NCBI RefSeq assembly: GCF_002000985.1
Contig: NZ_CP018822.1
Location: 1,320,001 to 1,384,000, forward strand
Source of the DNA: Streptococcus gallolyticus subsp. gallolyticus DSM 16831
Lineage (GTDB): Bacteria > Bacillota > Bacilli > Lactobacillales > Streptococcaceae
Reading direction: 5' to 3'
DNA length: 64,000 nt
In this document: one piece after another, positions 23,964-64,000 of the stretch
Layout of the letters: the number at the start of each line of letters is the position of its first letter
How positions within the stretch are numbered: the stretch's first letter is position 1
The notes under the pieces: generated by a model
Seen by the model: only the letters and a program-made list of their open reading frames with translations
Databases searched by the model: none
Told to the model about the DNA's origin: nothing
Program-made: the position numbers and the translations under genes

Positions 23964-24842
23964 CTAATCTACGTTACCACCTTCGACAACCAAATCATCA
24001 GGGTTAGCTGCGTCTCCATAAACAGGTTCAAGCGTTTCTTCGTAATCTTTATGGAAAAAGTTTTCTTCGCCTAATGTCTTGATTTCGTCGTTAATCCAGT
24101 CAAGAAGTTCTGTGTTTCCTTTTTGGACAGCTGGAGCAATCGTATCAGTATCTCCTAAACTTGTAATTCCAACTTCGTAACCTTTATTTTCCAATGCCCA
24201 AGCAAGAACCTCTGTATTATCAGTTGAAAGAGCATCACCACGACCATCAAGAAGCGCTTGATAAGCTTCGCTATATTGGTCATATTTTAATAAATTAACT
24301 TTTGGATAATTCTTTTCAAAATAAGTTTCAGCAGTTGTTCCTTTACCAACAATCAATGTTTTTCCTTCCAAATCATCAACAGAAGAAATCAATTTACTGC
24401 TTGGTGAGACAACTCCAAGTGCAACTTTCATATATGGAAGCGCAAAATCGACTTGTTCAGCACGTTCATCGGTAACTGTAAAATTCGCTAGGATAATATC
24501 AACCTTAGCCGATGTCAGGTATTCTACACGGCTAGCGGGGTCAACAGCGACATATTCCACATCCACGCCTAAATCCTTGGCTAAGCGATCAGCAAAATAA
24601 ACATCATATCCTTGATAGTCTCCCTTATCATCAACGTAGCCAAATGGCTTTTTATCAGAAAAGACACCAATCTTGATTGTTCCGCTCTCTTTGATTTCAT
24701 CTAAAGTACGAGCTTTTGCTGTATTTCCTGATGACGAACTACTAGATGACGTTGAAGAAGAGGATTTTGATGTCGAACAACCGACTAACAAAACCACAAC
24801 TAACAAACTAACAATCGCTAAAAAACGTTTTACAATTTTCAT
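23964..24842 (-). CDS. Amino-acid ABC transporter substrate-binding lipoprotein
   Basis: A 292-aa family-3 solute-binding protein. The signal peptide ends in the lipobox LLVGC (lipidated C22), followed by a serine-rich linker. Motifs such as GTIKIGVFSDKKPFGYVDD and VDIILANFTVTDERAEQVDFA are typical of polar-amino-acid or cystine-binding proteins. AAGGAG precedes the ATG. It is last in the operon with an ATPase and two permeases. A LysR-type operator shared with the 54-63 kb cluster precedes the operon, which suggests a sulfur amino acid as ligand (inference). Confidence 0.92.
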   Translation of the reverse strand: MKIVKRFLAIVSLLVVVLLVGCSTSKSSSSTSSSSSSSGNTAKARTLDEIKESGTIKIGVFSDKKPFGYVDDKGDYQGYDVYFADRLAKDLGVDVEYVAVDPASRVEYLTSAKVDIILANFTVTDERAEQVDFALPYMKVALGVVSPSSKLISSVDDLEGKTLIVGKGTTAETYFEKNYPKVNLLKYDQYSEAYQALLDGRGDALSTDNTEVLAWALENKGYEVGITSLGDTDTIAPAVQKGNTELLDWINDEIKTLGEENFFHKDYEETLEPVYGDAANPDDLVVEGGNVD

Positions 24843-24875
24843 ATATAACTCCTTTTTATAATTAATCACTAAAAC

Positions 24876-25622
24876 TTAACCAACCGTTGAAAAATCAAAC
24901 ACATTTAAAAAGTCACGTGCGCGTTGTGTCTTAGGTTGCGTGAAAAACGCCTTGGCATCATTTTCCTCAACGATATGACCATTTTCCAGAAAAATGATAC
25001 GATCAGCAATGGCTTTGGCAAATTGCAACTCATGGGTCACAATAATCATGGTTCGACCTTCATTTGCCAATTCACCAATCAACTCTAAAACTTCTCTGAC
25101 CATTTCAGGGTCTAGCGAAGCTGTCACTTCGTCAAATAAAATGACCTTTGGATGCAAAAGCAAGCTCCTCACAATCGCCACACGTTGCTTTTGTCCACCT
25201 GATAGTTCATGCGGAAAACTGTTTTCCCTACCAGCCAAACCAACACGTTCCAAAAGTTCTAAAGCTTCTGCTTCGACTTCCTTTCGCGGACGTTTTTGTG
25301 CTCTGGTAGGAGCCAGCAAGAGATTTTTCAAAACGGTCAAATGAGGAAAAAGGTCATAAGATTGAAAAACCATGCCAATTTTTTGGCGAATCAAAGGTAA
25401 CTCTTTAGGGTTATTTAAAATTTCTTCCCCCTCAAGGCTCACAACACCTGATTGAATGGATTCCAAACCGTTAATGCAACGTAGCAAAGTTGATTTTCCA
25501 CAGCCTGACGGACCTAAGATAACCAACACCTCACCTTCGTCAACTGAAAACGACAAATCATTCAAAACATTGTGTTCACCATAGGATTTCTTTAAATCGC
25601 TAATTTCTAAAATCGGTTTCAA
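24876..25622 (-). CDS. Amino-acid ABC transporter ATP-binding protein
   Basis: A 248-aa GlnQ-type ATPase with Walker A GPSGCGKST, LSGGQKQRVAIVRSLL and Walker B VILFDEVTASLDPE. I place the start at the TTG at 25622, eight nt after AAGGAG and 5 bp after the permease stop; the longer frame starting at 25721 would run through the permease C-terminus. It energises the permeases upstream. Confidence 0.93.
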   Translation of the reverse strand: MKPILEISDLKKSYGEHNVLNDLSFSVDEGEVLVILGPSGCGKSTLLRCINGLESIQSGVVSLEGEEILNNPKELPLIRQKIGMVFQSYDLFPHLTVLKNLLLAPTRAQKRPRKEVEAEALELLERVGLAGRENSFPHELSGGQKQRVAIVRSLLLHPKVILFDEVTASLDPEMVREVLELIGELANEGRTMIIVTHELQFAKAIADRIIFLENGHIVEENDAKAFFTQPKTQRARDFLNVFDFSTVG

Positions 25623-25627
25623 CTGCT

Positions 25628-26305
25628 CTACTCCTTCCACACTTTTTCTAAATACATTGATAATCGTGAAATTGGAAAACAAACCGCAAAATACATCAAG
25701 AATATCAGTCCATATATCCAAATCGCTGCGCTTGGTACCGTGAGACGGTTAGCTTCGATAATTTGCTGCCCGACTTTCACCACTTCCACAACTCCTATCA
25801 AGACAATCAATGACGTTGTTTTTATCATCCGTGTCATCAAATTAACCGCTTGTGGCAATAATCGCCGTAAAATCTGCGGAATAATCACATAAATGAATAA
25901 CTGCGTTTTTGTTAGCCCTAAAGCTAGCCCACTTTCGAATTGATGTTTGGGTAGCGATGTTAGTGCTCCGCGAACAAGGTCACCCATCTCAGCAATTCCC
26001 CACATTGAAAAGACAATAAGCGCCGCAACTTCTCCCGATAAATTAAGATTAAATGTTCGTGCCAAACCAAAATAAACTAAAAACAATAGTACCAATTGTG
26101 GCATTATTCTGATAAATTCCAAATAAATCTGAGCCAAGACGCGTACGATACGAAAACGTGAGGTCATTACAAAACCGAATAAAAAGCCGAAAACAATCGA
26201 AATCACAATTGACAATAAAGAGATATTAATCGTCACCAACAGCCCTTGAAATAACCGCCATAAATTATTTCCCTGAAAGAGCACTTGTAGCCCCGAATCC
26301 TGCAT
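25628..26305 (-). CDS. Amino-acid ABC transporter permease (second of pair)
   Basis: The 225-aa His/Glu/Gln/Arg/opine-type permease has four to five helices and the EAA-like loop ESGLALGLTKTQLFIYVIIPQILRR, here split by conserved Gly. AGGAGG precedes the ATG at 26305. It is intact, unlike the permease upstream, whose frame-restored end would overlap it by 41 bp. Confidence 0.92.
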   Translation of the reverse strand: MQDSGLQVLFQGNNLWRLFQGLLVTINISLLSIVISIVFGFLFGFVMTSRFRIVRVLAQIYLEFIRIMPQLVLLFLVYFGLARTFNLNLSGEVAALIVFSMWGIAEMGDLVRGALTSLPKHQFESGLALGLTKTQLFIYVIIPQILRRLLPQAVNLMTRMIKTTSLIVLIGVVEVVKVGQQIIEANRLTVPSAAIWIYGLIFLMYFAVCFPISRLSMYLEKVWKE

Positions 26306-26949
26306 GACGTAACCTCCTTTCAATCAATCTTGCTACCAACGAAATTGGCAAAAGAACGATCAAGTATGCCAAAACCAACATCAATAGCGCCTCATCAGTC
26401 TCGTAATACAAGCCAATCAAATCTTTTGCAACATACATCAAATCTGCTAAAGCAACAATTGAAAAAAACTGACGTTTCTTTAATCAAAAAAATAACATTA
26501 GCAACAAGCGATGGCAAAGAAACAGCTAAAGCTTGCGGAAAAATGACATAAAAGAAATTTTGAACTGGCTTTAAGCCGATACTCAAACCAACTTCGTACT
26601 GCGTTTTCGAAATAGCTTCCAAACCTGACCGAAATGATTCTGCCATATAAGAACCACCAAGAAAAATCAAGCCGACAACCGCGCACATCTCTGATGATAA
26701 AACAATACCAATCTTTGGCAACCCAAAATAAAGAAAATAAAGCTGTATCAAAAGCGGCGTGTTACGTGATAACTCAATGTAAACCTGACAAATTTGACTC
26801 AAAACAGGAATCTTATAATATTTAATCAAACTAATCAAAAGTCCTAAAACAAAAGCACCTAAAATCCCAAAAAATGCTAGACGAATCGTCAGCACCAACG
26901 CCTCTTGATACAAGGGAATATTCGCACGAATAAACTCCCAATTGAACAT
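26265..26949 (-). pseudogene. Amino-acid ABC transporter permease disrupted by a +1 frameshift in a T7 run
   Basis: The frame starting at 26949 gives 184 residues that match this permease family up to NVIFLIKETSV and then turns into an unrelated tail at a run of seven T (minus strand, plus-strand A7 at about 26462-26468). Dropping one T restores SVFSIVALADLMYVAKDLIG and continues in the correct frame to a stop at 26265, a 227-residue permease of normal length. The total span is one base longer than a multiple of three. It could be a real loss, slippage-based phase variation, or a sequencing error. First gene of the operon; an operator-like element and TATAAT lie upstream. Confidence 0.85.
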
Positions 26950-26975: not shown

Positions 26976-26981
26976 ATTATA
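26976..26981 (-). promoter_or_regulatory. -10 box of the amino-acid ABC operon
   Basis: TATAAT on the minus strand, exactly 22 bp downstream of the 40-bp LysR-type element. A second TATAAT lies at 26986-26991. Confidence 0.6.
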
Positions 26982-27003: not shown

Positions 27004-27043
27004 ATTCTAAATTATTTATAGGTAGCCATAAATAATTTTTATA
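27004..27043 (-). promoter_or_regulatory. LysR-type operator, copy A of four
   Basis: Minus strand: TATAA, then TTTATGG, CTACC, TATAAATAATTTAGAAT. It includes an 8-bp inverted repeat TTATTTAT/ATAAATAA spaced by 8. It aligns without gaps over 40 bp with copies at 58370, 62596 and 62941. Confidence 0.75.
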
Positions 27044-36289: not shown

Positions 36290-36415
36290 TTTGGGCTAGG
36301 TACAAAAAAATTCGCACCTAAACCTAGACACGAAAGTACAAATACGTTATTTCATCATTACGTTTTGTGCCTCGGCAGGAATATTATGAGCACGGCTCCC
36401 CTGCTGTCTTAGGTC
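36290..36415 (-). ncRNA. Ribosomal protein L10 leader
   Basis: The minus-strand leader carries the pattern of L10 leaders: a GACAGCAGGGGAGCCGTGCTC segment close to CTGCCGAGGCACAAAAC, then a hairpin (GTGTCTAGGTTTAGG/CCTAGCCC region) with TTTTTTT. Binding of the L10-(L7/L12) complex there should stop rplJL transcription. Confidence 0.8.
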
Positions 36416-36438
36416 AGTTTCATTACAAAACCTTAATT

Positions 36439-54637: not shown

Positions 54638-54795
54638 ATGTCAGTAATAATGGTTAGAGGTGAAGAAAGCGATGAAGCTATAAAACAGACTTCCTATTAG
54701 CCAACTTATATCATTTCAATGTACAATTTATTAGCCACTTTTAACACTGTAATTATGAACTGAATTCTTAATTTCAATCAACCATGCTCGCAAAC

Positions 54796-55839
54796 TCAAT
54801 CAATCAAAAATTTTTGTTCTGGTGTTTTTGAAAGGTATTTGCGTTTTTGTGGTGTTGACCAAATAGCATCGAAATCAATATCATCAGCGAACCGTGAGTT
54901 GAAATCGACAAATAATTTTTCTTTCTTGGTATCCCAACCACGCGCTATATCATGAAAATAAGTATTGTGTTTAAAGGCTGGAATTTCATACAAATCACGC
55001 GCATAGCCCCAAATATTAGTGTACTCGGAAATTCGTTTTTTGATTGGACCTAAATTTCGGTAGTAATGTGTATCAAAGCGTGCTAAGGTGACAAAAAAGC
55101 GCACATCGCTATCTGTAACATAATCACCAAATAAAAATCTATTATTCTCCAATCGTTTTTCAAGCACATCTAAAGTTGTGAAAAAATCATCGAATGCCTC
55201 CTCGTAAGCAACTAAGGATTGTGCAAACATCATTCGATAAACGCCATTGTTAACAAATGGAAAAAGAACATTATCATTCAAATTATCAATATCAGCACGC
55301 AATTCTTCTGGGTAGAGATTAGGGGCATTTACTTTTTGGAATGGTTTAAAGTTAACTTCTAAATAATTAGTCAATCGATGATAATCATTATTAACAACTG
55401 TATAAGTTTCTAAATCTACAAGAGCTGGTACAGTTGTACGACCAGTATAGTCTGGATCGGCACGATAATAAAATTCAGATAAGAATTCGGCTCCTGTTGT
55501 TGGGTCAACTTGGTTTTCGTAAGCAGCAAAATCCCATCCATATCGGCGTTTTTCTGGATCTTCGTAATCATGTCCAACAATAGTAACAGAAATGGCATCT
55601 TCTAAACCTAGTAATTCTCGAACAATAGAAGCACGATTTGACCAATGGCATCCTTTTGCCCAATATAAATGATAACGCCCTTTTTCTGCTTTTAATTCGC
55701 CCTCACCATCTCCAAATGGTGTTGTAAAATGATTTGGTTGGCGTTGAAAAGCACCGCGTTCATCAATTTCTGTTTTCGTTTCAACGGGACGAATTTTTAT
55801 TTCTACTGGCTTGATATTAGGATTTGTATAGTTTGGCAT
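54796..55839 (-). CDS. Glutathionyl-hydroquinone reductase-like protein (GST family, Omega/Xi type), divergent paralogue
   Basis: The 347-aa protein has the YqjG/ECM4 layout: thioredoxin-like N-half with HLYWAKGCHWSNRASIVREL, ADPDYTGRTTVPALVDLETY, and a helical C-half. The catalytic-type cysteine is C64, but the motif is GCHW and not the usual ACPW found in the gene upstream. Known family members remove glutathione from glutathionyl-hydroquinones. It is last in the operon headed by a solute-binding protein and probably under the LysR-type operator at 58370. Confidence 0.88.
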   Translation of the reverse strand: MPNYTNPNIKPVEIKIRPVETKTEIDERGAFQRQPNHFTTPFGDGEGELKAEKGRYHLYWAKGCHWSNRASIVRELLGLEDAISVTIVGHDYEDPEKRRYGWDFAAYENQVDPTTGAEFLSEFYYRADPDYTGRTTVPALVDLETYTVVNNDYHRLTNYLEVNFKPFQKVNAPNLYPEELRADIDNLNDNVLFPFVNNGVYRMMFAQSLVAYEEAFDDFFTTLDVLEKRLENNRFLFGDYVTDSDVRFFVTLARFDTHYYRNLGPIKKRISEYTNIWGYARDLYEIPAFKHNTYFHDIARGWDTKKEKLFVDFNSRFADDIDFDAIWSTPQKRKYLSKTPEQKFLID

Positions 55840-55855
55840 AGTATTTCTCCCTTAA

Positions 55856-56812
55856 TTAAATATAGTGACGACTAGCACGGTCATGTGGTAAATCCCAAAT
55901 ACTCAAATCGGGACCTTTTGGTAAAATTTGATGAGGATTATCAACAGCGCTTAAATGATAATGTTTCTTGATATGGTCAAAATTGGTAGTTTCTTTAAAA
56001 GCCTCTTGCTGATAAAGGTCACGCGCATAACCCCAAAGATTAGGAAAATCAATTAAACGATTGCGATTACAGCGAAAACCATTATAGTAGGCAATGTCAA
56101 AACGCACGAGAGAGACGTAAAGTCGAATATCAGAGTCCGTTAATCGCTCACCGAATAAATATCGACTATGTGCTAATCTTTCTTCCAATTCATCCAACCG
56201 TTGAAATAATTTATCATAAGCTTCTTCATAAGCTTTTTGACTCGTAGCAAAGCCTGCTTTGTAAACACCGTTGTTAATGTCATGAAAAATAATCTCATTT
56301 AAAGCATCAATATCAGCACGCAATTCTTCTGGATAAAGGTCAGGAGCTTCTGTACTATGAAATGGTGTCCAATCCGTCTCCCAAATTTTCAGCAAATTAT
56401 AAAAGTCATTATTAACAACTTCTTTTGTTTGCAAATCCACTACTGCTGGGACAGTAAAACGTCCCTGATAAGCAGAATCAGTTTTTAAATACAATTCACT
56501 TAAATAACGAACACCAAGGACAGGGTCAGTATTATTTTTATCCAAACTAAACTCCCAATCTGTCCGATTAACCCCCACAGGACGAATAGGATTAACAACG
56601 CCTACGCTAATAACATTTTCTAACCCCAACAGTTTAAGAGCAATTAATTGCCTGTGTGCCCAAGGGCAAGCATATGAAACAATCAATCTATAACGATTCT
56701 TCTCAACAGGTAACTGACCTTCTTCTTTTCCAAAAGGAGTTGTAAATCTGGTTTTCTGGCGTTTAAAATGTCCTGAATCATCTACTTCTTTGCTAACAAA
56801 TTTAGTTGTCAT
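55856..56812 (-). CDS. Glutathionyl-hydroquinone reductase-like protein (GST family, Omega/Xi type)
   Basis: The 318-aa protein has the canonical YqjG/ECM4 active site SYACPWAHRQLIALKLLG with C49, GRFTVPAVVDLQTKEVVNND and the helical C-terminal half (DSDIRLYVSLVRFDIAYY). It should reduce glutathionyl or other thiol adducts of quinols. It overlaps the 48-aa ORF upstream by 4 bp and is followed by its paralogue after 16 bp. Confidence 0.92.
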   Translation of the reverse strand: MTTKFVSKEVDDSGHFKRQKTRFTTPFGKEEGQLPVEKNRYRLIVSYACPWAHRQLIALKLLGLENVISVGVVNPIRPVGVNRTDWEFSLDKNNTDPVLGVRYLSELYLKTDSAYQGRFTVPAVVDLQTKEVVNNDFYNLLKIWETDWTPFHSTEAPDLYPEELRADIDALNEIIFHDINNGVYKAGFATSQKAYEEAYDKLFQRLDELEERLAHSRYLFGERLTDSDIRLYVSLVRFDIAYYNGFRCNRNRLIDFPNLWGYARDLYQQEAFKETTNFDHIKKHYHLSAVDNPHQILPKGPDLSIWDLPHDRASRHYI

Positions 56813-56955
56813 AGTCTTTCCCCACTTTCGATTTCTTCTAAGAATAAAAGTGAAATATCTTCTAAATAACCATTTGCTTGTAAGCTTGTTAAACGATATA
56901 TCATTGAACGCGGGTCATCTTCATAAATAAAAAGAGATTTTAACAATTTTTTCAT
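56809..56955 (-). CDS. Small 48-aa protein between the GNAT and GHR genes
   Basis: The frame from the ATG at 56955 reads MKKLLKSLFIYEDDPRSMIY and ends LLFLEEIESGERL. It begins 1 bp after the GNAT stop behind AAAGGACGG and its stop overlaps the GHR start (ATGA), so it is likely translated as part of the operon. I do not recognise it. The longer frame to 57099 lies in the GNAT gene. Confidence 0.6.
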   Translation of the reverse strand: MKKLLKSLFIYEDDPRSMIYRLTSLQANGYLEDISLLFLEEIESGERL

Positions 56956-56956
56956 A

Positions 56957-57442
56957 CTAATACCGTCCTTTCTCACTATCAAAGCGATAATTTTCTGGTA
57001 AAAAGAACCCTTCATCTTCCATCCATTGTAAACTCTCAGGTGTTCCATGATCAAAGTGAGCAAAAGCTGTTTTATTGCGACGGAAACCATATTTTTCATA
57101 TAAAGTGAGTGTTTGTGGATGTGTATAAAGAATCACATTAATTCCTGCTAGTTTTTCTAATAAGGTTGTGATAATGGTATGCCCAATGTGCTGTCCTTGA
57201 TAATCTGCAGCAACTGCAACGTTATAAATCGCTCCTTGCGAAACAAAATCAGTCAAAGCACGTCCAACTCCAATCACTTTATTTCCATCTTTGATATAAA
57301 TAGTAATGTCGCTGTTACGAAAAGACTTTTCAGTTTGTTTGACATCTGTATTGCTAGCAAGCCCTGCTGAATGCAAAACATCAGCAACTTGTTGAAAATC
57401 CACCTTATCCGAATCTGTTTCAATCGTATATTTAAAAGTCAT
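56957..57442 (-). CDS. GNAT-family N-acetyltransferase
   Basis: A 161-aa acetyltransferase: GVGRALTDFVSQGAIYNVAVAADYQGQHIG holds motif A with the acetyl-CoA loop, split here by the beta-strand, and LYEKYGFRRNKTAF is motif B. Its place with a solute-binding protein is like ytmI of the B. subtilis sulfur operon, whose products act on N-acetylated S-compounds. Substrate is inferred only. Confidence 0.9.
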   Translation of the reverse strand: MTFKYTIETDSDKVDFQQVADVLHSAGLASNTDVKQTEKSFRNSDITIYIKDGNKVIGVGRALTDFVSQGAIYNVAVAADYQGQHIGHTIITTLLEKLAGINVILYTHPQTLTLYEKYGFRRNKTAFAHFDHGTPESLQWMEDEGFFLPENYRFDSEKGRY

Positions 57443-57451
57443 AACAATCTC

Positions 57452-58306
57452 CTAATCATCATAAGTTGGTGAATAATCTTCATCAAAATACTTTTCATTA
57501 ATTTGTTTAGAAGTTCCGTCCTCAACGACTTCTTTAAGAGCAGCATTAATATCCTCTGCTAGTTGCGTTTCTTCTTTTCCAACAACAAAATAACTATATG
57601 GTTCAGACATTAAAGCTGTTGACAAGTCTCCACTAATCGTTTTCCCCGTTAAATCCAAGCTATACTCTTTTTGATAGTATTCAAACATTGGTTTATCCAT
57701 AACGAGAAAATCATATTTACCACTTTCAACGCCTTCAAGTTGTGATTTTAAATCCTCAGAAGAATAATTGAGTTCAATCGTATTGTCTGGATTTGCTTTA
57801 TTATATTCTTCGATTGCTGTTGTTGAATTTACACCTGATGACCCAACCGTTGATAAACCAGCTAAATCTGACCATTCATCGGCTGTTTTGGCTTTATCGC
57901 TACCGTTTTTAAAAATAACGACGTAAGAATTTTTAAAAATTGGATCTGTAAAAAGATAATTTTTTTCACGTTCGGCGTTTTTGGCTAAATTATTCACTGC
58001 AATTTGATAGCGTCCTGAAGTTAGCCCAGAAAAAATAGATGAAAATTCAACCTTGACGATTTTTAATTTATACTGAGGCAATTTTTCAAAAACAGCTTTG
58101 ATTAATTCAATATTTTGTCCAGTTAGTTCACCATCTTCCTCATAAGTAAAGGGTTTTGGCGAGCCACTTGTTGCCGCAACAACGGTGATTTTTTCACTAG
58201 AATCGGACTTGGCTTCACTAGTATTTTTAGTTACTTTATCAAAAATCAATAGCCCTACTAACGCTACTACAATAATAGAAATAATCCATTTTACTTTTTT
58301 CTTCAT
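57452..58306 (-). CDS. Amino-acid ABC transporter substrate-binding protein (membrane-anchored)
   Basis: A 284-aa family-3 binding protein with an N-terminal helix (about residues 6-24) and no lipobox cysteine; SGSPKPFTYEEDGELTGQNIEL begins the ligand domain, interrupted here by its linker. It resembles TcyJ/TcyK cystine-type proteins. ATG at 58306 follows GGGGG at 7 nt. It heads the operon and may share the permeases and ATPase encoded at 58456-60617. Confidence 0.9.
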   Translation of the reverse strand: MKKKVKWIISIIVVALVGLLIFDKVTKNTSEAKSDSSEKITVVAATSGSPKPFTYEEDGELTGQNIELIKAVFEKLPQYKLKIVKVEFSSIFSGLTSGRYQIAVNNLAKNAEREKNYLFTDPIFKNSYVVIFKNGSDKAKTADEWSDLAGLSTVGSSGVNSTTAIEEYNKANPDNTIELNYSSEDLKSQLEGVESGKYDFLVMDKPMFEYYQKEYSLDLTGKTISGDLSTALMSEPYSYFVVGKEETQLAEDINAALKEVVEDGTSKQINEKYFDEDYSPTYDD

Positions 58307-58341
58307 TCTCATTCCCCCTAAAGGTTTTATTAAGTACAACT

Positions 58342-58347
58342 ATCTTA
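58342..58347 (-). promoter_or_regulatory. -10-like hexamer of the GNAT/GHR operon
   Basis: TAAGAT on the minus strand, exactly 22 bp downstream of the 40-bp element at 58370-58409. Confidence 0.55.
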
Positions 58348-58369
58348 CCACCACCTCATAAGTCTGCAT

Positions 58370-58409
58370 AATCTATCTTTTTTATAGACCGCCATAGATT
58401 TCTTTTATA
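58370..58409 (-). promoter_or_regulatory. LysR-type operator, copy D of four
   Basis: Minus strand: TATAA, AAGAAATC, TATGG, CGGTC, TATAAAAAAGATAGATT. Aligns without gaps with copies at 27004, 62596 and 62941. Confidence 0.75.
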
Positions 58410-58420
58410 TTCATCTATCA

Positions 58421-58451
58421 CAAAAAACATCGGTACGTTGGCATACCGATG
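58421..58451 (-). terminator. Terminator after the ABC ATPase gene
   Basis: Perfect stem CATCGGTA/TACCGATG followed by TTTTTT on the minus strand, so the GNAT/GHR operon needs its own promoter. Confidence 0.85.
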
Positions 58452-58455
58452 CTTT

Positions 58456-59214
58456 TTAAATCACTGGGTCTATATTGAGTTCTGGGATGATGCGGGTTAA
58501 GAATTGTTTGGTGCGTTCTTCTTTTGGTTTGCTGAAGAATTCTTTTGGGTCGCCTTCTTCGATAATGTGTCCGCCTTCCATAAAGATGACATGTGTTGCC
58601 ACATCACGCGCAAAGCTCATTTCGTGAGTGACGACTACCATAGTGACCCCTTCTTGGGCTAATTCTTTCATGACATCAAGAACATCTCCAATCAATTCTG
58701 GGTCAAGGGCAGATGTCGGCTCGTCAAATAAAATGACATCAGGTTTCACAGCGATAGCACGCGCAATTCCAATCCGTTGCTGTTGCCCACCAGACAATTG
58801 ACTAGGATAGTAGTCTTTTTTCTCTAAAAGCCCAACTTTTTTCAGCGCATTTTCAGCAATTGGGATAGCTTCTTCTTTTGGAATCTTGCGAGCAATGACT
58901 AATCCTTCCAAAATATTTTCAATAGCCGTTTTGTTAGCAAATAAATTATAATTTTGGAAAACAAAGGCTGTTTTTTTGCGAATTTCAAGGACATCCTTGC
59001 GACTGATTTTTGCCAAATCGTAGGTCTTGCCATCTAGTATCAACTCCCCAGCGTCAGCTTTTTCAAGATAATTAAGAGACCGCAAGAAAGTTGTTTTTCC
59101 TGAACCAGAAGGTCCCAAGATGACAACAACATCACCTTGATTGACTGTCAAACTAATCCCGTCTAAAACTTTTTTATCTCCAAATGATTTTTCGATATTT
59201 TTAACTGATAACAT
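58456..59214 (-). CDS. Amino-acid (cystine-type) ABC transporter ATP-binding protein
   Basis: The 252-aa ATPase has Walker [25 protein letters not shown] and Walker [15 protein letters not shown], like TcyN/GlnQ. Last gene of the UroD-like/SBP/permease operon. Confidence 0.94.
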
Positions 59215-59234
59215 AGAAAACTCCTAACTTGACC

Positions 59235-59915
59235 TCAAACAATTTGAGCACGTTTTTCTAAAAATTTAAAACCGTATTGAATAAGCCCACAAATCACAAT
59301 ATAAATAATGAAAATAACAAAATAGGATTCAAAATAATGGTAACCATAAGCGGCTTCAATCTTAGCAATTGCCGTGATATCTTTCACCGTCATCACAAAA
59401 ACAAGAGAAGTCCCCTTGACGAGATTAATCACCAAGTTGCAAAGATTTGGTAGCGCCTGACGAATAGCTTGCGGAAAAACTATTCTAATATAAGCTTGAC
59501 TGGTCGAAAGCCCAATCGCCTGTGCAGCTTCTAACTGTCCTTTATCAACCGTTAAAATGGCAGAGCGGATAATCTCAGATAGGCTTCCAGTAGTCATAAG
59601 CCCAAAAATAATGTAAGCGTAATAAATAGGATTAATGTCAAAAATATTAAAACCTGTGGCTTTCAATAGCTGGTTAATCAAACTTGGAAAAAGACTATAA
59701 AAAAATAAAATCAGTAAAATAGCTGGTGTCGAACGAATAAAGGCGAGATAAATAACTGAAAATCCCGTAACACCTTTCACCTTATAAATGCGACCTAAAG
59801 CTAGAAAAAGAGCTGGAAAGAAACTCAAAAGAATGGAAACAACCATAATTCCCAAGGTTACTGGAATCCCAGAAAGAGTTTTGACAAATGTTTCTAAAAT
59901 GTAAGAAAAATCCAT
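59235..59915 (-). CDS. Amino-acid ABC transporter permease (TcyM-like)
   Basis: A 226-aa permease with about five helices and the loop EAAQAIGLSTSQAYIRIVFPQ that binds the ATPase. Follows the other permease by 9 bp. Confidence 0.93.
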   Translation of the reverse strand: MDFSYILETFVKTLSGIPVTLGIMVVSILLSFFPALFLALGRIYKVKGVTGFSVIYLAFIRSTPAILLILFFYSLFPSLINQLLKATGFNIFDINPIYYAYIIFGLMTTGSLSEIIRSAILTVDKGQLEAAQAIGLSTSQAYIRIVFPQAIRQALPNLCNLVINLVKGTSLVFVMTVKDITAIAKIEAAYGYHYFESYFVIFIIYIVICGLIQYGFKFLEKRAQIV

Positions 59916-59924
59916 AATCCCTCC

Positions 59925-60617
59925 TTAACCTCGTGTCGTGTCTAACTCATTTTCAATGAAATGTGTTCCAACAGCTAAAATTAACGCTAAAACCCAGTAA
60001 ATAATGGCAACCGCTGTATAGGTTTCAAGCGAATAATTGCCCAGATTTCGTGAAATAACCAAATTTCCAGCACCCATTAAATCAACCAGACCAATCGTAT
60101 AGGCTAAAGCAATGTCTTTTAATAGATTAATAATCGCTGTCGTGATATTGGGGAGTGCAATCCGAAACGCCTGTGGCAAAAGGATTCTGACAAATGTCTG
60201 ATAATCTGTTAAACCAATACTAAGCCCTGCTTCTAATTGACCTTTAGGAAGTGCTTGATAAGAGGATTTAAAAACTTCTGAGATACTAGCTGCAAACAAC
60301 AATGTCATCGCTAAAATAACAAACACTGAACGAGACCAACCATTGACATCGATGCCTAACCACCATTCTAAAAAACGAGGTAAACCATAAAAAACCAAAA
60401 AGATAAGCACAATAGGTGGCGTACATCTTAAAATAAAGACATATCCTCTTGCAAAAGAGGATAAGCTTTTTTCACCTGACAACTGTGACCAAGCCAAAAA
60501 CAGTCCTAACAGGCTTCCAAATAAAATGGTCAATACTAAAACCCATAAAGTCAGAGGTAAAGCTGATAAGATTTCTGGAAGAAATGTTATCACACGAGAC
60601 GGTTCATAAGAAACCAT
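59925..60617 (-). CDS. Amino-acid ABC transporter permease (TcyL-like)
   Basis: A 230-aa permease with EAGLSIGLTDYQTFVRILLPQ as the coupling loop. ATG at 60617 follows GGAGG at 5 nt. Forms the channel with the permease downstream. Confidence 0.93.
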   Translation of the reverse strand: MVSYEPSRVITFLPEILSALPLTLWVLVLTILFGSLLGLFLAWSQLSGEKSLSSFARGYVFILRCTPPIVLIFLVFYGLPRFLEWWLGIDVNGWSRSVFVILAMTLLFAASISEVFKSSYQALPKGQLEAGLSIGLTDYQTFVRILLPQAFRIALPNITTAIINLLKDIALAYTIGLVDLMGAGNLVISRNLGNYSLETYTAVAIIYWVLALILAVGTHFIENELDTTRG

Positions 60618-60626
60618 AGGCACCTC

Positions 60627-61505
60627 CTAGTCTGTGACGTAACTAAAGACATCTTCTCCAAAGTATTTTTCAGAAAGTTTTGCGATTGTGCCGTCTTCTT
60701 TCAACTCTTTAATAGCTTTATCATATTCTTTGGCAAAGGCTTCATTAGTAGCATTTTTATGAATCAATGGATAAGTTTCAATGCCTTTATATGGGAACCA
60801 TGTTAATTGGTCAGCATATTGATGATAAGCACCATCTTCGTCTTGAACAGCTTCTTCAAATGACAACTTGATTGAGAAATAAGCATCGTAACGTCCTTCA
60901 AGAACCCAAGCATAGGCATCCGCAACAGAGAAACTTTCTGATTCTGTCAATTCAATCGGATTTTTAGCTGTTTTATTGTACTCTTGAATCACATTATATT
61001 GAGCATTTTGTGGTGAAATTGGAACGAGTTTACCACCGCTATTAGCAAATGAATCGATATCTGTGTATTTTGATTCATCTTCTTTACGAATGGCAAAGCC
61101 AATCACACTAGCACCAATGGCTTCGTCTGGAATCACAAATTTTTCAGCACGTTCAGCGGTGTACCATGCACCTTTGACACCAATATCGTATTTTCCAGAT
61201 TCAAGACCAATCAGCAAATCTTCGTCACTTGTTCCTGTGTATTCGAATTTATAATTTTTCAATTTTTTATCGACAGCCTTCAAAACAGCAACTTCAAATC
61301 CGTCACTTTCACCATTTTCATCGACATAATCGTATGGCACATAGTTTTGTGTATGAGCGACTTGAAGGGTAGTCACCTTGTCTGAATCGCCAGATGAGCT
61401 TTGAGCACTTGCGGTCGTCTTACCTGTTAATTGACGTCCAATTACTGTCGCTGCAACAAGCGCTACAACAACTCCACCAGCAACAATCCATTTTTTCTTA
61501 CTCAT
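60627..61505 (-). CDS. Amino-acid ABC transporter substrate-binding protein (TcyJ/K-like)
   Basis: The 292-aa protein has an N-terminal helix (about 7-22, no lipobox) and a family-3 ligand domain (ENGESDGFEVAVLKAVDKKL, SGKYDIGVKGAWYTAERAEK). It follows the UroD-like gene by 26 bp and precedes its permeases. A cystine-like or S-substituted amino acid is a likely ligand (inference). Confidence 0.92.
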   Translation of the reverse strand: MSKKKWIVAGGVVVALVAATVIGRQLTGKTTASAQSSSGDSDKVTTLQVAHTQNYVPYDYVDENGESDGFEVAVLKAVDKKLKNYKFEYTGTSDEDLLIGLESGKYDIGVKGAWYTAERAEKFVIPDEAIGASVIGFAIRKEDESKYTDIDSFANSGGKLVPISPQNAQYNVIQEYNKTAKNPIELTESESFSVADAYAWVLEGRYDAYFSIKLSFEEAVQDEDGAYHQYADQLTWFPYKGIETYPLIHKNATNEAFAKEYDKAIKELKEDGTIAKLSEKYFGEDVFSYVTD

Positions 61506-61531
61506 ATAAATCCACTCCTTTTCCTAAAAAC

Positions 61532-62533
61532 TTATAAAGCAACCGCTTCTTTCACCCAATCAATACGTTCTGACGAAATATCACTTGGTACGGTACAATC
61601 TGCTCCAATCACAACGCCTTGACGTCCTGCTTCATCAAGCAATTCTTTGACTTTTCCTTGAATAGCTTCTTTACTGCCAAGGTACAATAAACCTTTTTCA
61701 GTATTTTCAAAGCCACCAAGAACTGTTTTGCCACCGAACAATTGACGTCCTTCTGATAAGCTGACACCTTCCAATTCAACTGCCCAGTTAATGACATCTG
61801 CGGGATAATCTGTGTAATACGTAATGTCATTTGTTGCGCCTTCATAACCACAGATGTGAAGAATATTCGTACCACCAGCAGAAATCGCACGATTCAAAAT
61901 GTGAAGCTCACCTGGTTTAATCACTTGGTTGTATTCTTCTTTGCTTGAACGTAAATCTTGCAAATTTTGAACGCTGAGGTAAATACCGTCAACTCTTGCT
62001 TCTTTAATTAAACGTTTTGTTAAGATGCCAATGTCGCCAGCAACCACGTCCAAAACTTCTTTAGTCAACTCAGCATCTTCCTTGATAAAGTTTTCAATGA
62101 TTTCATCACCATTGCCGCCTTTTCCTGCCAATTGCCACTTCAAATAAGTCACAGGAGCAAAAATATTATAGAAAGAAGCAATATCTTCTGGGAAATCTTC
62201 ACGTATTTCTTTGGCTAATTCAACTTGTTGTGTAATCCAAGGATGATTTTCACCGATAGAGACAATTCCTTCTAATTCTTTGATAGAAGTGACACCTTGA
62301 TGAATTTGTTCATTAGGATAAGTGAAGAAGCCGTCACTCATCACCTTGACAAAATCTGGATTGACGTCTGAAACGAATTTCTTATGTCCTGCGATATTTT
62401 TATTGAAAATCTCAGGATTAAAACCGTCGCCTCTTTCATCATCCGTTGTGAAATGATACCAAAATCCGACAGGAACTTTGTCGACTTTTTCATTTTTAAA
62501 TGCTTTTAAAACCCATTCTCTCTTTGTTGTCAT
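61532..62533 (-). CDS. UroD-superfamily protein with MtaA-type zinc methyltransferase residues
   Basis: The 333-aa protein has the uroporphyrinogen decarboxylase fold signature (REWVLKAFKNEKVDKVPVGFWYHF region, FAPVTYLKW, GGKTVLGGFEN). It carries the zinc set of methylcobamide:thiol methyltransferases: H226 and C228 in LHICG and C313 in GADCTVP. No heme genes are nearby, so a thiol methyl-transfer role is more likely than decarboxylation. ATG at 62533 follows AAGGAG; the longer frame is untranslated leader. First gene of the transporter operon. Confidence 0.88.
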   Translation of the reverse strand: MTTKREWVLKAFKNEKVDKVPVGFWYHFTTDDERGDGFNPEIFNKNIAGHKKFVSDVNPDFVKVMSDGFFTYPNEQIHQGVTSIKELEGIVSIGENHPWITQQVELAKEIREDFPEDIASFYNIFAPVTYLKWQLAGKGGNGDEIIENFIKEDAELTKEVLDVVAGDIGILTKRLIKEARVDGIYLSVQNLQDLRSSKEEYNQVIKPGELHILNRAISAGGTNILHICGYEGATNDITYYTDYPADVINWAVELEGVSLSEGRQLFGGKTVLGGFENTEKGLLYLGSKEAIQGKVKELLDEAGRQGVVIGADCTVPSDISSERIDWVKEAVAL

Positions 62534-62564
62534 AATCTGTTTCTCCTTTGCTTTTGGTATGACA

Positions 62565-62573
62565 ATTATACTA
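62565..62573 (-). promoter_or_regulatory. -10 region of the UroD-like/transporter operon
   Basis: TAGTAT (62568-62573) stands 22 bp after the LysR-type element; TATAAT (62565-62570) overlaps it at 25 bp. Confidence 0.55.
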
Positions 62574-62595
62574 TCATGCATTTTTATACTTGAAA

Positions 62596-62635
62596 AATCT
62601 ATATTTTTTATGAATAGCCATAAGATTTGCTTATA
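62596..62635 (-). promoter_or_regulatory. LysR-type operator, copy B of four
   Basis: Minus strand: TATAA, GCAAATC, TTATGG, CTATT, CATAAAAAATATAGATT. Contains the inverted repeat TTATG-N6-CATAA. Confidence 0.78.
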
Positions 62636-62645
62636 GCAAAAAACA

Positions 62646-62685
62646 AAGAAAAAGCCAGTCAAGATATTCTCTCGACTGACTTTTT
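62646..62685 (-). terminator. Terminator after the 62-aa membrane protein gene
   Basis: Minus-strand arms AAAAAGTCAGTCGAG and CTTGACTGGCTTTTT with T5. Confidence 0.8.
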
Positions 62686-62689
62686 ATCT

Positions 62690-62878
62690 TCAAGGCAAAT
62701 GTGTCAAACTTTTTAAGCAATTAAGATACTGTAAATCTTCTTTCGTGATTTCAGAGCTCTGGTAATCAGAAATCAATTGGTTAAAAGGAGATATTTTCAA
62801 AAAAATAAGAAGAGATAAGACAAAAATTATTAGTGTTACTATTGAAATGTTTCTTAACTGCTTTTCGGTTACTATCAT
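62690..62878 (-). CDS. Small single-helix membrane protein (62 aa), divergent from lysR
   Basis: From the ATG at 62878 the protein reads MIVTEKQLRNISIVTLIIF, then more hydrophobic residues to about 33 and a polar tail (SDYQSSEITKEDLQYLNCLK). GGAAG lies 9 nt before the ATG. It has its own terminator, and a LysR-type operator with -10 TAAGAT precedes it. Not recognised; may be a transporter accessory peptide. Confidence 0.65.
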   Translation of the reverse strand: MIVTEKQLRNISIVTLIIFVLSLLIFLKISPFNQLISDYQSSEITKEDLQYLNCLKSLTHLP

Positions 62879-62912
62879 AGACACGTCTTCCTTCAAGATT
62901 TTTAGTAATTCT

Positions 62913-62918
62913 ATCTTA
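62913..62918 (-). promoter_or_regulatory. -10-like hexamer of the 62-aa gene
   Basis: TAAGAT on the minus strand, 22 bp after the 40-bp element at 62941-62980. Confidence 0.5.
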
Positions 62919-62940
62919 CCACGTCTCTTTTCATTCGTAT

Positions 62941-62980
62941 AATCTAAATTTTTTATTATTATCCATAAAATCTGCTTATA
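62941..62980 (-). promoter_or_regulatory. LysR-type operator, copy C of four, in the lysR divergent region
   Basis: Minus strand: TATAA, GCAGATT, TTATGG, ATAAT, AATAAAAAATTTAGATT. It sits between the small gene and lysR, the usual place of a LysR autoregulatory site. Confidence 0.78.
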
Positions 62981-63113: not shown

Positions 63114-64000
63114 ATGAATTTTCAACAATGTCGTTATGTTGAAGCAGTCGCTCGTGTAGGTTCTTTTAGTCAGGCAGCTAAGGAATTATTTATGACTCAA
63201 CCCAATTTATCAAGTTCTATTAAGGATTTAGAAAATGAATTAGGGGTTCAACTGTTCACACGTTCCAATACAGGCACGCGCTTAACTGAAGATGGCTATG
63301 ATTTTTTGAAATATGCCAAACGTATTATCGGTGAGCTTGATTTGCTTGAGCAACGTTACCATGACCAATTTAAAAAGAGTTTCACGGTAGCATCGCATCA
63401 TTATGATTTCTTGTCAATTCCGTTGGCTAAGGTTGCCCAACAATTCAATCAAGATTATCAAGAATTTCAAACGATTGAAACGACCACTAAGAAAATCTTA
63501 GAAAGTGTTGCTCGTTTTGAAGCTGATTTGGGTATTATTTATCTGGATGACGAAAATAAGCATATTTTGGAATCTTCCTTGGAACACCAAGACTTGGAGT
63601 TTACGTCTTTGGGTGATTTTCCAACACGTGTCTTTCTTAGACGTAATCACCCATTGGCACATAAGGATGTCATTTCTGAAAGCGACTTAAAAGGTTACGA
63701 CCAAATTCGCTTCCGTCAGGAACAATCAGGTTTGAATTTTGACGAGGATGCCTTGCAAATTCACGATGAACAGCACGTGCTTTATAGCAATGACCGTGGA
63801 ACAGTCATGAATTTACTTTGTGCAACAGACGCCTACGCCTCTGGTCTTGGAATTGTAAATAGCTTCGTTCGTGACCAAATTGTCCTCATTCCTCTGCAAG
63901 ATAGTCCTAAACATACCCTTGGATATGTGACCAATAAAAAGAAAAAAGTTTCAAAAATTGGAACAGCCTTTATCCAAGAAATCAAGAAAAGCCTCAATGA
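63114..64000 (+). CDS. LysR-family transcriptional regulator (3' end outside window)
   Basis: The frame is open from the ATG at 63114 to the last base (295 codons), so the family length of about 300 aa is nearly complete. The N-terminus is a LysR winged HTH (RVGSFSQAAKELFMTQPNLS, then SSIKDLENELGVQLF), followed by the effector domain with FEADLGIIYLDD and GTVMNLLCATDAYASGLGI. A TGCTATAAT lies about 35 bp upstream. It is similar in layout to CmbR/YtlI sulfur regulators; its own promoter region carries one of four copies of a shared operator. Confidence 0.9.
   Translation, partial: MNFQQCRYVEAVARVGSFSQAAKELFMTQPNLSSSIKDLENELGVQLFTRSNTGTRLTEDGYDFLKYAKRIIGELDLLEQRYHDQFKKSFTVASHHYDFLSIPLAKVAQQFNQDYQEFQTIETTTKKILESVARFEADLGIIYLDDENKHILESSLEHQDLEFTSLGDFPTRVFLRRNHPLAHKDVISESDLKGYDQIRFRQEQSGLNFDEDALQIHDEQHVLYSNDRGTVMNLLCATDAYASGLGIVNSFVRDQIVLIPLQDSPKHTLGYVTNKKKKVSKIGTAFIQEIKKSLN

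Follow-up and report, generated by a model that had tools for sequence, protein, structure and literature searches.

Three LysR-type proteins of Streptococcus mutans, CysR, MetR and HomR, are described as related, with O-acetylserine named as the likely cofactor of CysR (PMC4048456), and HomR is reported to activate tcyDEFGH and thiosulfate genes (PMC5131005). Here we describe a 40-bp element that occurs four times in a window of 64,000 nt from Streptococcus gallolyticus subsp. gallolyticus DSM 16831 (NZ_CP018822.1, positions 1,320,001 to 1,384,000), one copy lying beside a LysR-type regulator gene that starts at window position 63114. The sequence of the element, its promoter geometry, its specificity within the genome, its conservation and its co-occurrence with this LysR gene were established directly. 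We consider it highly probable that the element is the operator of the 63114 LysR, a probable HomR ortholog, at an activator-dependent sulfur-scavenging promoter of fixed spacing; as a switch, it very probably activates the import of sulfur compounds of the cystine kind. A literature search of titles, the starts of abstracts and text passages, with subscription papers mostly outside its scope, returned no description of this operator.

The repeated element and its promoter geometry

The copies, the -10 hexamers that follow them and the regulator gene are as follows (ABC, ATP-binding cassette; SBP, substrate-binding protein; GST, glutathione S-transferase; ORF, open reading frame).

27004..27043, minus strand: putative operator copy 1, promoter of the second amino-acid ABC operon
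26976..26981, minus strand: -10 hexamer TATAAT, 22 bp after copy 1
58370..58409, minus strand: putative operator copy 2, promoter of the SBPb-GNAT-GST2-GST1 cassette
58342..58347, minus strand: hexamer TAAGAT of the extended -10 TGGTAAGAT, after copy 2
62596..62635, minus strand: putative operator copy 3, promoter of the URO-D/tcy-like ABC operon
62568..62573, minus strand: -10-like TAGTAT, with an overlapping TATAAT 3 bp downstream, after copy 3
62941..62980, minus strand: putative operator copy 4, between lysR and the divergent small ORF that it precedes
62913..62918, minus strand: hexamer TAAGAT of the extended -10 TGGTAAGAT, after copy 4
63114..64000, running beyond the window end (301 aa in the genome), plus strand: LysR-type regulator gene, PF00126 and PF03466

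The original prediction had described four ungapped copies at these positions, all on the minus strand upstream of minus-strand genes, with shared letters at the start, at positions 13-18, in the middle and at the end; every part of this was borne out. Altogether, 22 of the 40 positions are invariant (TATAA at 1-5, TATGG at 14-18, ATAAA at 25-29, AA at 31-32, TAGA at 35-38 and T40), and pairwise identity among the copies is 26-34 of 40. When matrices were built from three copies and applied to the fourth, the copy left out scored 30.9, 29.1, 39.5 and 34.9 bits, as against only 9.7-11.7 bits for the top non-copy site in the window and a maximum of 12.3-13.9 bits over twelve 64-kb random sequences drawn from a first-order Markov model of the window. 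A chance repeat is rejected by these scores. Scanned across the genome, as the original prediction had proposed, the motif is not frequent at unrelated loci: in the 2,492,900 bp, a search for a 38-bp pattern, allowing up to 3 mismatches, matched exactly the four copies, and an 89-column profile of the copies gave them 62-65 bits and the next site 15.5, leaving four strong sites. A broader model added a weaker site (G000:115956-116019, L133; 29.7 bits) before a PF04143 sulfur transporter gene, relatives of which in L126 and L153 are preceded by stronger sites. The same broader model gave a sixth match in the genome, at G000:249630-249663 (L213), which is partial (21.1 bits).

The prediction that a -10-like hexamer starts exactly 22 bp after the element was true for all four copies. 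By reading, three of the four carry an extended -10 (TGN), and the copy at 27004 has a second TATAAT 10 bp upstream of its -10 hexamer. Across 99 distinct sites of at least 22 bits from the window and its relatives, TANNNT was present at exactly offset 22 in 93 and an extended -10 (TG) at that offset in 79, the next commonest offset having 11; this set includes near-identical relatives, the window's own four sites and sites fetched by models containing the -10 columns. Among 31 sites found by the 40-bp core alone, with no -10 columns in the search model, 28 have TANNNT 22 bp after the core, and L008, L011 and L015 each contribute one of the three that do not. In the column counts of the 99 sites, position 44 is C in 98% and position 45 is A in 82%; the conservation of these two letters points to a degenerate -35 (TNNNCA at 40-45), which would sit 17 bp before the -10. 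The element also contains a dyad, TTATG-N6-CATAA, centred at 20.5; with a transcription start assumed about 7 bp downstream of the -10, this centre would fall near -54. The symmetric pairs of the dyad are T-N12-A, and an asymmetric T16-N11-A28 exists (99-site column counts).

An RNA element was also considered and rejected, the sole Rfam match in the window lying elsewhere. That match is a ribosomal protein L10 leader (RF00557, 87.7 bits; 36296-36431, minus strand).

Co-occurrence with the LysR gene and candidate target genes in other streptococci

The protein encoded at 63114 matched PF00126 (helix-turn-helix, 77.6 bits) and PF03466 (substrate domain, 56.1 bits), both over the Pfam cut-off, and its full ORF is present in L113. 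Its sequence matches in the PDB were other LysR-family proteins, and NCBIfam gave it no name, the best 25 of 55 families all being below cut-off. As had been predicted, one copy of the element lies in the divergent region of this gene, the copy at 62941 being placed between lysR and the small divergent ORF; relatives also have sites beside lysR. The genes downstream of the copies in the window are the following.

62690..62896, minus strand: small ORF, 68 aa from TTG or 62 aa from ATG, of no family, 50-59% identical in L005-L008
61532..62533, minus strand: URO-D/methyltransferase-like protein, SMU.932-like, PF01208
60627..61505, minus strand: substrate-binding protein SBPa, SMU.933-like, PF00497
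59925..60623, minus strand: ABC permease, PF00528; best NCBIfam match the cystine permease PRK15100, below cut-off
59235..59915, minus strand: ABC permease, PF00528
58456..59214, minus strand: ABC ATPase; best NCBIfam match TcyN, below cut-off
57452..58339, minus strand: substrate-binding protein SBPb, PF00497
56957..57442, minus strand: GNAT acetyltransferase, PF13508 and PF00583
55856..56812, minus strand: GST2, glutathione S-transferase-like, PF13410 and PF13409
54796..55839, minus strand: GST1, glutathione S-transferase-like, PF13410 and PF13409
26395..26949, minus strand: permease of the second ABC operon, TIGR01726 over cut-off
25628..26323, minus strand: permease of the second ABC operon, TIGR01726 over cut-off
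24876..25721, minus strand: ATPase of the second ABC operon, GlnQ/TcyN-like, below cut-offs
23964..24869, minus strand: substrate-binding protein of the second ABC operon, below cut-offs

The small ORF had no Pfam or NCBIfam match and, by eye, probably encodes a single-span membrane peptide. Downstream of it, at about 62644-62680, a terminator-like inverted repeat was seen by eye.

A search of the genome collection with the LysR returned 20 loci: 16 full matches and one partial match from Streptococcus and three loci from Enterococcus. With a 40-bp matrix of the window copies, sites above 12 bits were found in 16 of the 19 loci L005-L023, the misses being L012, L013 and L020. Conservation in related species, on which the original prediction depended, is thus seen both for the element with its geometry and for the operons that follow it. 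The URO-D/ABC operon is preceded by a site in, for example, L005-L008, L014 and L016-L018, the SBPb-GNAT-GST2-GST1 cassette in L016, L017, L143, L146, L150, L151 and L118 (the last with no GNAT match), and the second ABC operon in L005-L008 and L131 and, by eye, also in L171; a copy occupies the position between small ORF and lysR in L005-L008 as well. An M20 hydrolase is preceded by a site in L010 and L023, and a C26 hydrolase in L019 and L023. The predicted link between the ABC operon 30 kb away and the cluster gained support from L005-L008 (S. equinus/vicugnae), where this operon, with its own copy, directly adjoins the cluster. In the three Enterococcus loci, lysR, URO-D and ABC genes lie in tandem, with weak sites (9.4, 15.4 and 13.5 bits) about 15 bp after lysR and the same -10 spacing.

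The LysR and motif tests across the genus covered 197 Streptococcus genomes, with stricter filters applied in the model searches. Of these genomes, 30, the window's own included, carry an ortholog of the LysR (E up to 1e-85, 62-100% identity). Among the matches listed, a model trained on the four sites of the own genome reached 29 bits in 27 of the 29 other carriers of the ortholog versus 0 of 167 genomes lacking it; the two remaining carriers, G072 and G180, reached 28.3 and 26.6 bits, and the best genomes lacking the ortholog, G017 and G040, 28.6 bits. That the element tracks the presence and absence of the 63114-type LysR supports the proposal of a probable LysR regulon. A 30-site model placed all 30 carriers at 36.0 bits or more and the best non-carrier at 31.3, again among the matches listed, but this model was partly trained on the genomes tested and the four-site model is the cleaner one. 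Four more genomes with the ortholog lie beyond the 197 (G201, G208, G234 and G265), with the site search made in G234 alone. The loci L012 and L013, matched by contig coordinates to G098 and G181, have no site beside lysR and strong sites elsewhere in the genome, which argues for action in trans.

By sequence, the 63114 LysR is a third member of the streptococcal CysR/CpsY(MetR) paralog group. Every one of the 40 genomes sampled carries related LysR paralogs of 31-40% identity: 35 of the 36 genomes lacking the ortholog have a pair of them and the other a single one, and, besides the ortholog itself, three of its four carriers have two and the fourth has one. In the own genome, the 63114 protein shares 38% identity with the paralog whose gene adjoins lspA/rluD-like genes. 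Since paralogs are also found in genomes without the 63114-type LysR, they alone do not explain the strong sites.

We then asked which genes follow the sites in 40 regions around listed sites, chosen by us rather than at random, taking the best site of each; the first gene was named by BLAST to the window proteins, by position relative to an AhpD search covering 284 genomes, by Pfam on representatives and by reading. The first gene was AhpD-like in 13 of the 40, followed in those read by an acyl-CoA-dehydrogenase-like gene. Five regions each had first a cystine-type ABC operon (L119, L127, L130, L131 and L138; the distance from site to operon start exceeds 450 bp in L119 and L130), the SBPb-GNAT-GST cassette (L118 without a GNAT match) and an M20 hydrolase, while the PF04143 sulfur transporter came first in four, the fifth site of the own genome among them, and the URO-D operon in three. 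A C26 hydrolase followed by a binding protein was seen by eye in two (L136 and L149), and a formate/nitrite transporter family gene, a Met_synt_2 gene and an NlpA/MetQ-type gene in one each. The common theme of these targets is sulfur acquisition. Two local peculiarities were recorded: in L122 (G127) an IS3-type transposase-like ORF pair (by eye) lies between the AhpD-like and acyl-CoA-dehydrogenase-like genes, inside the predicted operon, and in L136 the C26-like gene reads as two adjacent ORFs (88 and 132 aa) and may be broken there.

In G130 (L150), the SBPb-GNAT-GST2-GST1 cassette and its promoter (window 54701-58430) are 89-91% identical in DNA over the 3.25 kb compared; the tcy operon of the same genome is 64-70% and its lysR 70-78% identical to the window counterparts. 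Because the cassette is far more alike than lysR and tcy, the comparison suggests that cassette and operator were exchanged together between species.

G234 was identified as S. mutans by the protein ends of SMU.932, 933, 961 and 962 (PMC10782952, Table 1); some of these ends are common to sister species, and among the loci searched that of SMU.961 occurs only in G234. Its ortholog is 69% identical to the 63114 LysR and divergent from an operon in which the two leading genes encode proteins with the ends of SMU.932 and SMU.933, the first being a PF01208 protein. The strongest sites in G234 lie at SMU.932 (54.9 bits), SMU.961 (51.0) and an M20 gene (33.8; Pfam-checked), and a fourth match is partial (19.2 bits). 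We take tcyDEFGH to be SMU.932-936, and the M20 gene bearing the site is presumably hipO. Exactly three related LysR genes, the ortholog included, were found in G234 at E<=1e-30, and the two others adjoin, by eye, lspA/rluD-like and pyrD-like genes, neighbours fitting CysR and CpsY. Given three related paralogs, these neighbours and the reported activation of tcyDEFGH, S. mutans HomR is, by elimination, the probable ortholog of the 63114 LysR. The S. mutans sites agree with two published data sets. Of the ten proteins that accumulate most when clpX is mutated, four are SMU.962, 961, 932 and 933 (PMC10782952, Table 1), read by the authors as ClpXP substrates; green fluorescent protein fused to the C-terminal tripeptides of these proteins was brighter without ClpX (PMC10782952). 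In addition, tcyDEFGH and hipO are among the many genes that rise on immR depletion (PMC10233336).

A proposed operator mechanism and its alternatives

We infer binding, activation, effector and substrate as follows. The dyad near -54, together with a distal half-site TATAA and a proximal TAGATT ending at the degenerate -35, would form the operator of a weak, activator-dependent promoter, in which a 17-bp spacer leads to the extended -10 TGNTANNNT. A LysR tetramer carrying a sulfur-metabolism effector, perhaps O-acetylserine, would contact RNA polymerase at the -35, and the importers of cystine and S-substituted cysteines, with their accessory enzymes, would be switched on when sulfur amino acids are short. 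HomR requires O-acetylserine.

Several points weigh against this proposal or parts of it. Binding of the element by the 63114 LysR is a prediction, and the dyad has T-N12-A pairs in place of a symmetric T-N11-A, the T-N11-A that does exist being asymmetric. Eight of ten regions fetched from genomes without the ortholog, again chosen by us, have core sites of 20-26 bits (L157-L159 and L162-L166): three precede a C26-like gene, with the -10 one base off offset 22, and the other five, four before NlpA/MetQ-type genes and one before another gene, all have TAAGAT at offset 22. In the remaining two regions no core site above 10 bits was found. A paralog may share a related motif, possibly a CysR/CmbR version. 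For the clpX mutant, the proteolysis explanation has data behind it. The discussion of PMC5131005 also credits S. mutans HomR with activating metBC; no metBC site was recognised in G234 at E<=0.01, metBC itself being unlocated there, and no gene in the 3-kb surroundings of the 19.2-bit match was recognised as metBC. HomR control of metEF is listed for S. gallolyticus, S. gordonii, S. mutans and S. pneumoniae (PMC3616900), and no site in the own genome could be tied to metEF; this listing sits badly with the sites found and with an ortholog that only 30 of the 197 genomes carry, although neither S. pneumoniae nor S. gordonii was identified within the 197. Finally, S. mutans (G234) has five PF00126 genes versus four reported, and the naming of HomR by elimination is therefore not airtight.

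The weaker sites could reflect joint control, in which CysR and the 63114 LysR read overlapping versions of one ancestral motif and the latter is a specialised duplicate that took the stronger sites. We regard this as possible, at well below even odds. Strong and weak sites have a common geometry, the three LysR groups are related, and C26-, NlpA/MetQ- and AhpD-type genes have sites in genomes with and without the 63114-type LysR; for AhpD in the latter, the link is the closeness of four-site-model matches to genes of the AhpD search, and L161, the sole such region fetched, has no core site. The weak sites, however, were inspected in the ten regions above, two of which have no core site above 10 bits, and the binding side of joint control is hypothetical.

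It is unlikely that the element belongs instead to another sulfur LysR paralog, CysR/CmbR or CpsY/MetR, with the 63114 LysR merely a neighbour. Such paralogs are present in every genome sampled, genomes lacking the 63114 type have weaker sites ahead of NlpA/MetQ-type and C26 genes, with the -10 spacing unchanged or shifted by one base, and CmbR of S. pneumoniae controls spd-0150, metEF and gshT (PMC5131005). It is nevertheless the distribution of the 63114-type LysR, not that of the paralogs, that the strong sites match (27 of 29 versus 0 of 167, among the matches listed), and because of this, control by CysR/CmbR alone was not adopted. That the copies are a dispersed mobile or repetitive DNA element without a regulatory role is scarcely conceivable: there are four similar copies, one of them shared across species at high identity together with a gene cassette, but an alignment of the four promoters shows little in common beyond the element except promoter-like columns, and a functionless repeat is contradicted by the position of the copies before genes, by the -10 offset kept in 93 of 99 sites and by only four copies in 2.49 Mb.

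Returning to the element as operator of the 63114 LysR, a more tentative and rather doubtful extension is that its targets form a dispersed, modular salvage pathway for S-substituted cysteines and glutathione adducts. The importers would admit the compounds, and GST-like, C26 gamma-glutamyl hydrolase, GNAT, M20 and URO-D-methyltransferase-like enzymes would strip them to cysteine. Like operator-plus-promoter units on the modules would then put a moved cassette under the control of the recipient's LysR on arrival, as the SBPb-GNAT-GST cassette suggests.

Comparison with known systems

What was a repeat seen by eye is now a defined, putative operator with fixed promoter geometry, usable to predict LysR targets in genomes that carry the regulator. 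It assigns the AhpD/acyl-CoA-dehydrogenase-like pair, the GNAT/GST cassette, the M20 hydrolase and the small ORF to one sulfur regulon, and, alongside proteolysis or in its place, it offers co-regulation as a testable reason why SMU.932, 933, 961 and 962 rise together in the clpX mutant.

The closest described system is that of S. mutans HomR. Like HomR, the 63114 regulator is of the LysR type and one of three related paralogs, and its S. mutans ortholog is divergent from the SMU.932/933 operon; the site at the PF04143 sulfur transporter gene of the own genome would parallel the reported HomR control of thiosulfate genes. Unlike HomR as described, the window adds a second ABC operon, the SBP-GNAT-GST cassette and the small ORF as targets. 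The regulon is thus wider than we found described for the relative in which the regulator is probably already known.

The 63114 LysR is likewise similar to CmbR of Lactococcus lactis and CysR-CmbR of streptococci in being a LysR sulfur regulator with paired boxes upstream of the -35. The centre of the lactococcal CmbR box lies 46-53 bp before the start, and 8-10 bp upstream there is a second box (PMC5131005), positions that, by description only on the lactococcal side, are close to the predicted -54 dyad and distal TATAA half-site here. It differs from CysR-CmbR in being a separate gene, 38% identical in the own genome, and in its distribution, such paralogs being found in every genome sampled and the 63114 type not. 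The ytmI operon of Bacillus subtilis includes an acetyltransferase and a hydrolase. In the YtlI (AscR)-ytmI system of B. subtilis and Listeria, a divergent activator stands beside a TcyJKLMN-type cystine importer operon (PMC9239247), an arrangement to which the present locus is likened by description, not by sequence; unlike in that system, the genes here are spread over several promoters. On the best-supported reading, the system works like those of CmbR and YtlI and is most likely a HomR regulon.

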